Translations under genes and position numbers: made by a program
Notes under the pieces: generated by a model
What the model was told of the DNA's origin: nothing
Seen by the model: only the letters and a program-made list of their open reading frames with translations
Database searches by the model: none
Shown: piece after piece, positions 42,277 to 49,237 of the stretch
Layout of the letters: each line of letters begins with the position of its first letter
How positions within the stretch are numbered: position 1 is the first letter of the stretch
Source: Phycisphaeraceae bacterium D3-23
GTDB taxonomy: Bacteria; Planctomycetota; Phycisphaerae; Phycisphaerales; Phycisphaeraceae
NCBI GenBank assembly: GCA_039555135.1
Contig: CP114179.1
Location: forward strand, 3,100,001-3,164,000
Direction of reading: 5' to 3'
Length of the DNA: 64,000 nt

Positions 42277-43215
42277 ATGCCAGCGAATATCCGAGAGATC
42301 AAGGGCCGGATCAAGGCCGTGGGCAACATCAAGCGCATCACGCACACGATGCAGCTCATTGCCTCGGCCAAGTTCCAGCAGATGCAGAAGCGCGCGACCG
42401 ATGCGCAGGCCTATACCCACAAGGTCGCCGAGGTCGTCGGCGAGGTCGCGTCGACCATGAGCCCGGGCGAGGTGGACCTGCCGCTGATCAGCCCGCCGGC
42501 CCAAAAAGTCGGCAAGGAGCTGCTGCTCGTGCTGACGTCCAGCCGGGGCTTGTGCGGGGCGTACAACGGCAACGTGATGCGCAAGGCGCTCGCCCACCTC
42601 AACGCCCAGGGCCAGCAGAACATCGACCTCGAAGTCGTCGGCAAGAAGGGCGTGGGGATGTTCAAGTTCTCGCGTGTGCCGGTGGATGTGGTCCACGACA
42701 CGATCAGCGACACGCCGGGCTACGACGAGGTCGCCGCGATCGCGCAGACGTATATGGATGCGTACATCGACGGCAACTACGACGCGGTGCGGGTGTGCTA
42801 TATGGCGTTTCGCTCGATGTCCAAGCAGGAGCCGGTGCTGCAGACGCTGTTGCCGCTGGAGCCGCCGGACGGGGGAAGTGGCCCAGTGGCCGAGCGGTCT
42901 AGTGGTCAAGTGAAAGACTCGGCCACTGGGCCACAGGACCACTCGACCACTTCCGCCGTCAACTACGAGTTCTCGCCCGGCCCGGAAGAGCTGCTGGGTG
43001 AGCTTTTGCCGATCACGGTGAAGTCGACGCTGTTCCAGTGCTTCAACGAGGCGATCGTGAGCGAGCAGATCGCGCGGATGGTCGCGATGAAGTCGGCGAC
43101 CGATGCGGCGGGCAAGATGGGGAAATCGCTCAAGCGGCAGTTCAACCGCGCCCGCCAGGCGGCGATCACGACCGAGCTGTCGGAGATCATCGCCGGTGCG
43201 GCGGCATTGGAATAG
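42277..43215 (+). CDS. atpG: ATP synthase F1 subunit gamma, with an in-frame repeat insertion
   Basis: This 312-residue central-stalk subunit couples rotation of the c-ring to the alpha/beta catalytic sites. The N-terminal helix (ANIREIKGRIKAVGNIKRIT HTMQLIASAKF), the Rossmann core (LLLVLTSSRGLCGAYNGNVM) and the C-terminal helix (NEAIVSEQIARMVAMKSATD) are all present. Codons 200-226 (42874-42954) are an 81-base GTGGCC-type repeat with inverted arms, inserted exactly between codons and read as GSGPVAERSSGQVKDSATGP plus seven more residues. They lie in the surface-variable loop between the Rossmann core and the C-terminal helix, so function should survive. The gene opens the operon, an unusual place for gamma. 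Confidence 0.96.
   Translation: MPANIREIKGRIKAVGNIKRITHTMQLIASAKFQQMQKRATDAQAYTHKVAEVVGEVASTMSPGEVDLPLISPPAQKVGKELLLVLTSSRGLCGAYNGNVMRKALAHLNAQGQQNIDLEVVGKKGVGMFKFSRVPVDVVHDTISDTPGYDEVAAIAQTYMDAYIDGNYDAVRVCYMAFRSMSKQEPVLQTLLPLEPPDGGSGPVAERSSGQVKDSATGPQDHSTTSAVNYEFSPGPEELLGELLPITVKSTLFQCFNEAIVSEQIARMVAMKSATDAAGKMGKSLKRQFNRARQAAITTELSEIIAGAAALE
42874..42954. repeat. 81-base GTGGCC-type repeat inside atpG
   Basis: The left arm is built of 8-base units (GTGGCCCA, GTGGCCGA, GCGGTCTA, GTGGTCAA). The right arm is the inverse (GGCCACTGGGCCAC..GACCACTTCC), and both ends read GGAAGTGG/CCACTTCC. Same family as the arms around the four-helix-bundle gene at 47218 and 47632. Confidence 0.85.
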
Positions 43216-46336: not shown

Positions 46337-47218
46337 ATGGCCCGCAAAGGATTCTGGAACAAGCTCTTCGGCGGCGACGAACCCCCGGAAGACCGGCCCA
46401 AAGAAACGCCGCCCCGGCCAGAACCCCAAGCCGAACCCGACCCGCCAGCGCAGCCGGAACCCAGTGACCCCCCGGCCGGCCAAGACGGCACCCCCCAAGA
46501 CCCCGCCGAAGAGATTGAAGACGACCGCGACCTCATCGACATCGACACAGAGACAGACACAGACGCCGTATCGACACCGCCGCAAACGCCCGAAGTGACC
46601 GACACGCCCGAAGCGCCCGCCGACCCCGACCCCGTTCCCGGAGACGTCCCCTTGCCCCAGACCGCCGAACTCAAGACCGACGCCGTGGGCCGGGTGTATG
46701 CCGGGGCGCTGCTGGACCTCGCGCGTGAAGCGGGCGAGCAGGACGCGGTCGCCCAGGAAGTCGGCGAGCTGCTCCCGCTGGTCGAGTCGGGCAGCGACCT
46801 GCACCGGCTGTTGACCAACCCCGTCATCAGCGCCGACGAGCGGTCGAAGATCATCGGCCGCGTCTTCGAGGGCAAGGTCAGCGACCTGCTGCTGCGGTTC
46901 CTGAAAGTCGTGGCCGACAAAGACCGCCTGGGCAGTCTGGGGCCGATCCTCTCGGGCTACCTGCTCGCGATCGCGGAGTCGGGCGGCAAGGTCACGGTCG
47001 ACGCCTACGTCGCCGCCGCGATGGACGACGCCACCGCCAGCCGCGTCGCCGAACGCATCGGCCAGTCGCTGGGCAAAGAAGTCGCGCTGCGCCAGCACGT
47101 CGACGAATCCCTCATCGGCGGGCTGAAGATCAAGGTCGGCGACAAACTGATCGACGCGAGCGTCGCGTCGCAGCTCCGGGCGATGAAGAACAAGATGATT
47201 GCGGGGAAGCAGCAGTAG
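46337..47218 (+). CDS. atpH: ATP synthase F1 subunit delta with long N-terminal extension
   Basis: The C-terminal about 180 residues are a normal delta (OSCP) subunit, which joins the peripheral stalk to the F1 head: VGRVYAGALLDLAREAGEQD at the start of the domain, LTNPVISADERSKIIGRVF, and GLKIKVGDKLIDASVASQL at the end. The first about 110 residues are a Pro/Asp/Glu/Thr-rich disordered extension (GGDEPPEDRPKETPPRPEP) absent from typical delta subunits. Its TAG stop (47216-47218) overlaps the first base of the repeat array that begins the inserted cassette. Confidence 0.93.
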   Translation: MARKGFWNKLFGGDEPPEDRPKETPPRPEPQAEPDPPAQPEPSDPPAGQDGTPQDPAEEIEDDRDLIDIDTETDTDAVSTPPQTPEVTDTPEAPADPDPVPGDVPLPQTAELKTDAVGRVYAGALLDLAREAGEQDAVAQEVGELLPLVESGSDLHRLLTNPVISADERSKIIGRVFEGKVSDLLLRFLKVVADKDRLGSLGPILSGYLLAIAESGGKVTVDAYVAAAMDDATASRVAERIGQSLGKEVALRQHVDESLIGGLKIKVGDKLIDASVASQLRAMKNKMIAGKQQ

Positions 47219-47264
47219 TGGCCAAGCGGCCAAGTGGTCCAGTGGCCGAGTAAAGAGGGCGGTT

Positions 47265-47642
47265 GTGGCCAAGGTAAAACGGTATGAAGACTTGGTCGTG
47301 TGGCAGAAGGCGTATGAGTTAGTTCTTCAGATCTACACGCGAACGAAGATGTTCCCCGCAGACGAGAGATTCGGGTTGACACAGCAGATGAGGCGGGCCG
47401 CCGTAAGCGTCGTCTCAAACATCGCGGAAGGGTTTGGTCGCCGTACGACCGCCGACTTCCTCCGGTTCCTCGATATGTCTCGGGGCTCCGTCAACGAGTT
47501 GGAAACACAGACAAGGATCGCCATCGGATTGAAGTACATCGAGCCTGACGAGCAACTCAGGCAACTGATCGGCGATGTGGAACGCCTCCTCGCCGGCCTA
47601 ATCCGCTCACTCGAACGTAAACAACAGAACTCCGGCCACTAG
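47265..47642 (+). CDS. Four-helix-bundle (S23/IVP-like) protein inserted in the atp operon
   Basis: This 125-residue protein belongs to the family first seen in intervening sequences of 23S rRNA genes. The motifs are [59 protein letters not shown] and [19 protein letters not shown]. The most likely start is GTG 47265 after AGAGGG; this GTG is itself one 8-base repeat unit (GTGGCCAA), and the TAG stop at 47640 lies inside the right repeat array. It sits between atpH and atpA in the same direction. Its molecular role is not known; these proteins form oligomers and some bind nucleic acid. An operon-regulatory role is only speculation. Confidence 0.88.
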
Positions 47643-47671
47643 GCCACTCGACCACTAGGCCACTTGGCCAC
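47632..47671. repeat. Right 8-base-periodic array of the cassette
   Basis: Reads CCACTAGGCCACTCGACCAC and on; as its reverse complement it is five units of the GTGGCC(A/T)A type. It contains the stop codon of the four-helix-bundle gene and ends 21 bases before atpA. Confidence 0.8.
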
Positions 47672-47692: not shown

Positions 47693-49237
47693 ATGAAAAT
47701 CAACACCGACGAAATCACCAGCGTCATCAAGCAGGAAGTCGCGAACTACAACACCCAGCTCGACGTGAGCCAGGTCGGCACCGTGGTCGAGGTCGGCGAC
47801 GGGATCGCGCGGATCTACGGCCTGTCGAAAGCCATGGCCGGCGAGATGCTCGAGTTTGAGACCAAGGACGGCTCCACGGTCTCGGGCCAGGTGATGAACC
47901 TCGAAGAGGACATCGTCGGCGCGGTCATCTTCGGCGACTACCTCGGCGTGAGCGAGGGCATGACCGTCAAGAGCACGGGCCAGCTGCTCAGCGTGCCGAC
48001 CGGTGAAGGGCTCCTGGGCCGAGTCGTCAACGCGCTGGGCGAGCCGATCGACGGCAAGGGCCCGGTCGCCGGCGACGTCGAGATGCGGAAGATGGACATC
48101 ATCGCGCCGGGCATCGCCGCCCGCCAGCCCGTCAGCCAGCCGATGCAGTTCGGTGTCAAGGCCGTCGACTCGATGATCCCCGTGGGCCGGGGCCAGCGCG
48201 AGCTGATCATCGGCGACCGCAAGACGGGTAAGACCGCCGTCGCCATCGACGCGATCATCAACCAGAAGTACACGCACGAAGAAGAGGGCGAAGAGCCCGT
48301 CTACTGCTTCTACGTCGCGGTGGGCCAGAAGGACTCGACCGTCGCGGGCGTCGTCGATGCACTCCGCGAGAACGGCGCGATGGACTACACCACGGTCATC
48401 GTCGCCTCCGCCTCCGAGGCCGCGCCGATGCAGTACATCGCGCCCTACGCGGGCACGTCGATGGCCGAGCACTTCATGTGGAAGGGCAAGCACGCCCTGA
48501 TCGTCTACGACGACCTTTCGAAGCAGGCCGTCGCCTACCGCCAGCTCTCCCTGCTGCTGCGACGCCCCCCGGGCCGTGAGGCCTACCCCGGCGACGTGTT
48601 CTACCTCCACTCCCGCCTGCTCGAACGCTCGACCAAACTCAGCGACGCCAACGGCGGCGGCTCGCTCACCTCGCTCCCCATCATCGAGACCCAGGAAGGC
48701 GACGTCTCGGCCTACATCCCGACCAACGTCATCTCCATCACCGACGGCCAGATCTATCTCGAACCCGACCTGTTCTTCGCCGGCGTCCGCCCCGCGATTA
48801 ACGTCGGCATCTCCGTCTCCCGCGTCGGCGGCGCCGCACAGATCAAGGCGATGAAGAAGGTCGCCGGCTCGCTCCGCCTCCAGCTCGCCGCCTACCGCGA
48901 GCTCGAAGCGTTCGCGCAGCTCGGCACCGACCTGGACGCCTCGACCCAGAAAGAACTCGACCGCGGGGCCCGCATGGTCGAGCTGCTCAAGCAGCCCCAG
49001 TACCAGCCCATGCCCGCCGTCGACCAGGTCATCCAGATCTGGGCCGCCAGCAACGGCTACATGGACAAGATCAAGGTCGAACAGGTCCAGGACTACGCCG
49101 CGAAACTCGTCGAGTACTTCAAGACCCAGGGCAGCGCGACCTATGATGCGCTCAACGACTCCAAGGCCCTGGGTGACGACATCGTCGACGGGCTCAAGAA
49201 GGGCGCCGAGGCCTTCACCGCCGGGTACACCGGCTAA
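47693..49237 (+). CDS. atpA: ATP synthase F1 subunit alpha
   Basis: This 514-residue alpha subunit holds the non-catalytic nucleotide sites of the F1 head. Walker A is [12 protein letters not shown] at about 170-181. [41 protein letters not shown] and the signature [20 protein letters not shown] are all typical. The C-terminal helical domain is complete. The gene ends the visible operon; atpD and atpC, normally downstream, are not here. The gene start is separated from the repeat array of the cassette by 21 bases, with GGAG close to the ATG. Confidence 0.98.

Follow-up and report, generated by a model that had tools for sequence, protein, structure and literature searches.

The gene and repeat arrays between atpH and atpA

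The window, a 64-kb stretch of DNA covering bases 3100001 to 3164000 of a 4.62-Mb single-contig genome, probably of a planctomycete of the class Phycisphaerae, carries an ATP synthase operon in which a small gene enclosed by repeats separates atpH from atpA. The upstream gene, atpH (46337 to 47218, plus strand), encodes an OSCP domain with an N-terminal extension, and the downstream gene, atpA (47693 to 49237, plus strand), is intact. Between them, a left array, a four-helix-bundle (4HB) gene and an inverted right array make up a cassette of ~430 bp. The left arm (47218 to 47251, plus strand) is a tandem array of ~4 AGTGGYCN-type 8-mers, and the right arm (47638 to 47671, minus strand) is an inverted copy of the array. 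Both arms are 34 nt long and align with a score of 23.6 (p = 0.0004 against 5,700 cross-locus pairs), which confirms the arrangement described in the initial annotation. The 4HB gene (47265 to 47642, plus strand; 125 amino acids) starts with GTG and ends with a TAG at positions 47640 to 47642, inside the right arm, and the TAG stop of atpH (47216 to 47218) adjoins the cassette, with its G at 47218 also being the first base of the left arm; both overlaps had been claimed previously, and the coordinates agree. The GTG start had been taken as a repeat unit as well. Its sequence does match the unit exactly, but it is located outside the left arm, at a distance of 13 nt. The start of atpA follows 21 nt past the right arm. 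AtpH itself has an acidic, proline-rich extension of ~117 residues ahead of its OSCP domain (46337 to 46687).

The repeat unit is better written AGTGGYCN, with one position free. Exact copies of the 8-mer GTGGCCAA are not in excess in the window (4 seen versus 1.68 expected, with 9 of 100 shuffles reaching 4), but the unit is enriched as an array, with 88 genome matches to a 15-mer (≤2 mismatches) versus 14 for the reversed control. In the predicted RNA fold, the right arm pairs with the left arm around the whole gene (z = -3.2), placing the open reading frame in a loop closed by complementary termini. No Rfam match was found in the 64-kb window, and the cassette does not lie inside an rRNA gene.

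The encoded protein is a clear member of its family, with scores above the curated cutoffs for both PF05635 (E = 3.3e-36; 124.2 bits versus 33.8) and TIGR02436 (E = 9.2e-35; 119.2 bits versus 24). A profile built from 16 relatives matched PDB entry 2gsc (XCC0516; E = 9e-38) as well as 2rld, and from these matches the protein appears to be a homologue of the XCC0516 structure, which consists of five four-helix bundles, and more distantly of Avd, a protein of diversity-generating retroelements (DGRs). The homology to Avd is weak (PF22296 [bAvd], E = 4e-6; PHROG "Avd," E = 2e-13); the window protein falls below the bAvd and DivGenRetAVD cutoffs, and the window genome has no PF00078 match. Apart from PF05635 and the weak bAvd match, the Pfam search of the cassette returned nothing, and hence no transposase, including a Y1 tyrosine transposase, was found; nor is there a catalytic domain among its Pfam and TIGRFAM-type profile matches. 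The protein also had no PADLOC match as a known defense family and no match among the phage records of INPHARED.

Gene-specific arrays around PF05635 genes

The window genome contains seven PF05635 genes, six of which have inverted flanking arrays at p ≤ 0.02. Each of these six genes has a different unit, namely, AGTGGCCN in the window and TGAGGCC, AGGAGAT, GGGTTTC, GAATGTC, and AATGTCC types at the other loci, and the seventh, which is part of a 497-amino-acid frame, has no arrays. The expectation that the 4HB genes of this genome would be bounded by arrays therefore held for six of the seven and failed for one. The assumption that GTGGCCAA would be their common repeat was wrong, as it is the unit of this copy only and nearly every gene has its own 7- or 8-mer, mostly of 7 nt.

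A search of 41 genomes (the same genome, genus, family, and order) yielded 87 PF05635 matches in 27 of them. Array counts cover 76 of these matches, and 59 of the 76 genes have gene-specific inverted arms at p ≤ 0.02, where ~1.5 would be expected. Among the 17 genes without arms, 13 belong to two types when their translations are compared by eye, one being a coherent subfamily (L071, L073, L074, L075, and L094) and the other degenerate (L007, L078, L079, L096, L100, L102, L111, and L120); L063, L077, L095, and L109 belong to neither. In a scan of species genomes, 64 of 80 loci had arms, the other 16 failing the array test, and the record titles place these loci in at least 12 phyla; as the 80 loci are the best of 583, they are biased toward relatives of the query. 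No Rfam rRNA match was seen in these best 80 of 583 loci (the match plus up to 1.5 kb per side), the sole hit being one SAM riboswitch. Arms were likewise found for 27 of 30 genes in eight of the scanned genomes (8 of the 30 genes are also among the 80 loci) and, at a score of ≥13, for 27 of 33 scored loci on viral contigs (30 distinct genes; 4 short matches of 37 were left out). All 14 plasmid loci, taken from the first 14 of 41 records, reached the same score, yet only 6 of them also passed p ≤ 0.02 in the cross-pair test of this set, as it contains duplicate loci and loci with common units. Inverted arrays were absent from all 52 atpA and atpG genes used as negative controls and were present in 47 of 3,000 random segments (1.6%). 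When the loci were pooled, both flanks matched in a gene-specific manner in 123 of 156 cases, compared with ~3 expected at p ≤ 0.02. Thus, the arms bound the gene and are specific to it.

In the 123 positive loci, the dominant period was 7 nt in 96 cases and 8 nt in 21, compared to ~10 to 12% per period in shuffled arms. Read on the inward strand, the left arm is G-rich (1,440 G versus 499 C). Stop triplets occur at 63 per kb in left arms versus 39 per kb in right arms and exceed the shuffled expectation in both (255 versus 213 and 158 versus 105, respectively). All three frames are closed in 30 of 123 left arms, compared with 20 right arms and 214 of 2,460 shuffled left arms, and another 30 of the 123 left arms contain no stop at all. 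As stops are also in excess in right arms and 30 left arms close no frame, a role of the arrays in supplying stops is only partly supported.

The array covaries with the protein. Similarity between arms rises from 0.20 for proteins with <20% identity to 0.66 for those with >70% identity (Mantel r = 0.26, with 0 of 1,000 permutations, for 129 loci and with host base composition uncontrolled; the set excludes 6 loci whose matched stretch contained a stop), and the protein tree requires 11 changes of unit length between 7 and 8 nt, compared to a minimum of 15 changes in 300 shuffles. In five close plasmid pairs whose DNA similarity ends at the cassette (L252/L256, L252/L259, L256/L259, L248/L257, and L253/L255), the arms are similar at 0.63 to 0.93, against a background near 0.2. 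Four other pairs occupy matching junctions in different genomes (L004/L091, L002/L092, L054/L058, and L068/L070, two of which cross families), and hence part of the covariation reflects shared descent. Purifying selection acts on the 4HB protein, with dN/dS values of 0.10 to 0.14 among three copies taken from different sites; of seven further pairs, three gave values of 0.06 to 0.20 and four were saturated (the values are approximate, with dS near or above 1).

A second, parallel class of cassettes carries genes of the GxxExxY (PDDEXK_3) family (PF13366/TIGR04256). Scored against the flanks of 4HB genes, 26 of 30 such loci (L207 to L236; the count covers 30 of 50 matches) have inverted arrays, 24 of them with units of 8 to 10 nt, such as ACCACAGAGGCACAGAG. 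The units are common to several loci, and many of these loci therefore do not stand out against each other.

Insertion at stop codons and within genes

Cassettes sit at the stop codons of upstream genes and in the sense direction. Neighbors could be called on both sides in 53 of the 123 loci; relative to the 4HB gene, both neighbors were in the sense orientation in 45, both were antisense in 1, and 7 were mixed. An upstream stop was located at -12 to +25 nt from the arm in 37 of 55 cases, with a median of -2, which bears out the earlier proposal that the unit lands at stop codons. The related proposal that the element supplies the stop is suggestive at most, with TAG used by 19 of 37 upstream genes at cassettes versus 42 of 134 other genes at the same loci.

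Relatives of the window genome differ at the atpH-atpA junction. As the initial annotation had anticipated, empty sites exist: the junction is bare in G003 and G004, both of the same genus, where atpH ends in TAA. By eye, G001 and G018 have a different gene-less inverted array there, of the CACAGATG and CACAAA types, G002 has a single arm of a gene-less array, and G029, from another family, has its own 4HB cassette with AGCCATCG units. These empty, gene-less, and own-cassette states indicate that the junction has been used repeatedly. The cassette is nevertheless not peculiar to the ATP synthase operon and is one case of a general pattern. In two genomes from different families (L068 and L070), a 4HB cassette lies within dnaE, the gene for the DNA polymerase III alpha subunit, between the Pfam domains DNA_pol3_alpha and DNA_pol3_finger. 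There, the polymerase frame stays open across the full 454 to 517 nt, and the 4HB gene overlaps it in another frame. Among 59 positive cassettes, these two are the only ones that are open end to end in a nongene frame, and three are open in the frame of the gene itself. The preservation of the host frame argues that the dnaE insert is translated rather than excised. Such cassettes show a route by which DNA can become part of densely packed operons, and even of a DNA polymerase gene, with no visible break in either neighbor.

Plasmids that are nearly identical with and without a cassette show insertion, and the gene and its arrays form one insertable unit, as had been suggested from the window. 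Plasmid C of Trichormus variabilis is filled where the plasmids of Nostoc linckia NIES-25 and Aulosira laxa, ~98% identical around the site, are empty; the insertion is 428 bp long and is accompanied by an exact 5-bp duplication, GTAAT, which contains the upstream stop TAA. From the sequences, the insertion at this site in Scytonema NIES-4073 is shorter by 14 nt, equal to two units, and Nostoc C052 retains a decayed cassette copy at the same site. In Nostoc ATCC 53789, pNsp_a is filled and pNsp_c is empty at one junction, with a duplication of TTCTA and a missing adjoining G. A weaker case is that of pNsp_c, which carries a cassette at an overlapping stop-start, TAATG, that has none in Nostoc C052; the flanks read TAATG and TTATG, a duplication with one substitution, 32 nt of nonarray sequence separate the right array from the downstream start, and both neighbors retain their stop and start. 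A target duplication of 5 bp fits three of six filled and empty sites, exactly in one and with a single change in two. No clean duplication was found at the filled and empty sites L259, L261, and L255, and target bases were lost at some. Across loci without an empty partner, target duplications were not in excess (4 of 37 versus 3.1 by cross-pairing). The cassettes have terminal inverted repeats and empty sites, as DNA transposons do. One gap in the tra operon of Nostoc plasmids (L255, L266 to L269, and L271) varies from plasmid to plasmid, being free of arrays, filled with a 4HB cassette, or occupied by one of two gene-less structures, a GGGAACT array or a AATTCAAA element.

Gene-less relatives, related elements, and a possible mechanism

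In the window genome, the AGTGGCC array occurs on both strands in 14 clusters, in one inverted order throughout; these are the cassette and 13 gene-less clusters, one of which holds two hairpins. One gene-less hairpin with the AGTGGYCN unit (42871 to 42957) lies in frame within a variable linker of atpG. AtpG is 17 codons longer than its nearest relative, and aligning it with 13 other AtpG proteins shows nothing equivalent to the hairpin. GAATGNC and AATGNCC arrays are also dispersed in this genome, many as hairpins, with 24 matches versus 0 in the control. At L239 and L241 to L244, GAATGNC outer arrays surround AATGNCC inner arrays as nested hairpins, as though one element had entered another.

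Similar heptamer arrays have been described, namely, GGGAATC in Xanthomonas and GGGGATT in Nostoc (PMC4692102) and TAACTGA in Beggiatoaceae (PMC4679880). Rehm 2015 and MacGregor 2015 present the arrays without a linked protein family, and a term search of the text of both papers found neither "four-helix" or "four helix" nor "intervening" (PMC4692102, PMC4679880). We searched for GGGAATC in 369 genomes sampled across the class to which an Alcanivorax genome belongs, which we take to be the Gammaproteobacteria. Arrays of this heptamer were present in one genome (G415), and the reversed control was also present in one (G203, with 6 matches). The single PF05635 match of G415 is frameshifted and, from a reading of its flanks, lies between accB and accC; it is flanked by inverted GGGAATC arrays, the left one exact and the right one with one mismatch. 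Hence, a published orphan heptamer matches the arms of the sole cassette found in G415. Orphan 7-mer repeats, among them the short heptamer-type repeats of cyanobacteria known as STRR, have been known for decades. They resemble cassette ends in being tandem arrays of 7 nt, often in inverted pairs and mostly intergenic. The control pattern found in G203 also has the form of a heptamer array and may represent a further repeat of this kind.

Proteins of this family, designated IVP, are known to occur in rRNA intervening sequences. The origin of these sequences is described as unsettled, and the proposals include a remnant of transposition and a mobile element whose open reading frame is needed for mobility (PMC4990558). 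The initial comparison of the window cassette with these sequences was apt: those of 23S rRNA that encode an S23/IVP open reading frame have the same protein family, a size of ~430 nt, hairpin ends with the frame in the loop of a terminal inverted repeat, and a sporadic distribution. Unlike them, the cassettes lie in protein operons and plasmids, with no rRNA match beside any of the best 80 of 583 loci, and they have ends made of tandem 7- or 8-mer arrays, empty sites at the DNA level, one exact 5-bp duplication, and, from the G-U and A-C counts discussed below, no sign of conserved RNA pairing. Other element types share some features. REP/RAYT systems consist of one gene flanked by its own repeat, with gene-less copies dispersed and with repeat and protein related to each other. 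The cassette is alike in layout, but its protein is a four-helix bundle and not a Y1 transposase, and its repeat is a tandem 7- or 8-mer array. MITE-like elements resemble the relatives of the cassette that are gene-less hairpins with inverted ends, including the one in frame in atpG; they differ from the cassettes, whose ends are degenerate arrays and whose gene-bearing form has no recognized transposase. To our knowledge, the end structure and gene content of the cassette fit no known kind of element, and we therefore rate the class as new. Among the top-ranked results of a search of the open-access literature, no published link between PF05635 genes and flanking heptamer arrays was found. 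The protein, the idea of a hairpin, and some of the repeats were already known, each on its own, and on a stricter reading, the cassettes could be considered a variant of the rRNA intervening sequence.

We consider it probable, at roughly 65%, that the feature in the window is a one-gene mobile cassette composed of a left array, a 4HB gene, and an inverted right array and that it belongs to a class of such elements. The 4HB protein would recognize its own arrays as the ends of the element through putative binding and would help to move or protect it. Expression of the gene may depend on the host operon, which would account for the sense bias; the dN/dS values, the sense orientation, and the position at stop codons fit with such expression. 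As the period of 7 or 8 nt is not a multiple of 3, stop-bearing arrays could close the upstream frame, and stop-free units such as that of the window could sit in frame inside genes. The cassette encodes no recombinase or nuclease, and thus it does not by itself explain its movement; a strand-cutting enzyme would presumably be supplied in trans. A reverse transcriptase was considered as a universal partner and was rejected, since 5 of 13 cassette-bearing genomes lack a PF00078 match, one of these being the window genome with its six array-bounded copies. Y1_Tnp matches, mostly weak, were present in 12 of the 13, which leaves a Y1 transposase as a candidate partner.

The last count also suits a different explanation, in which the cassette is a passive, MITE-like hairpin moved in trans by an unrelated enzyme (a Y1 transposase, a reverse transcriptase, or another) and the 4HB protein is carried as cargo, with a function in the host or in regulation. 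The lack of a catalytic domain and the equally dispersed gene-less hairpins point in the same direction. We nevertheless regard this explanation as unlikely, if worth keeping in view, because covariation between protein and array would not be expected of cargo and because PF00078 is missing from the five genomes mentioned, including the single-contig window genome; G415 also has no Y1 match, although its sole 4HB gene is broken. It is also conceivable that the arms are maintained for their pairing in the transcript and their cleavage there by RNase III, as happens in 23S rRNA. The predicted fold around the whole gene and the sense orientation would suit such an RNA-level intervening sequence, and the Coxiella rRNA element is similar in family, size (428 nt), and hairpin (PMC4990558). 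This reading is improbable in light of the mismatches between arms, which have no G-U bias on the sense strand (39 G-U versus 44 A-C in 59 loci); in 123 loci, the counts are 84 versus 127 (binomial p = 0.004), a deviation opposite to the one that pairing on the sense strand would give. Moreover, excision would not require the two dnaE cassettes to keep the host frame open end to end, and the best 80 of 583 loci lack an rRNA match.

The remaining explanations can be given little weight. That some cassettes persist at one junction across genomes might suggest an ordinary resident gene with autoregulatory repeats and vertical inheritance, but this is contradicted by presence and absence at plasmid sites that are ~98% identical, by the decayed copy at one site, and by the other elements found at the atpH-atpA junction of relatives, which together make it very improbable. 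Chance low-complexity flanks, to which the lack of enrichment of the exact GTGGCCAA in the window might point, are refuted by the gene-specific flank matches in 123 of 156 loci and by the controls (0 of 52 and 1.6%), and we assign this explanation next to no probability.

The mobile-cassette reading can be extended, more tentatively and at somewhat less than even odds, to a nearly pan-bacterial class of elements in which a 4HB protein recognizes evolving 7- or 8-mer end arrays of its own and drives insertion at stop codons. In this extended form, the orphan heptamers of cyanobacteria, Xanthomonas, and Beggiatoa would be gene-less offspring of the class, the 23S rRNA intervening sequences would be its ribosomal branch, and the GxxExxY cassettes would run parallel to it. 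A family annotated only as "four helix bundle protein" would thereby gain a genetic context and a testable function, an origin is offered for orphan 7-mer repeats, and the origin of rRNA intervening sequences, a long-open question, becomes directly testable. Cassettes may thus explain both scattered short repeats and rRNA inserts.

In CRISPR-associated (cas) loci, eighteen IVP genes were reported in 2013 (PMC3936711). We found plasmid cassettes at a cas6-cas4 junction and at a cas10-cmr3 junction, the latter in Picosynechococcus PCC 7003, with PCC 7002 lacking a cassette at that position; these loci suggest that the IVP genes in cas loci are cassette insertions. On plasmids of Synechocystis PCC 7338 and 7339, the annotation places a gene for a Uma2 family endonuclease at the cas10-cmr3 junction, perhaps as another passenger.
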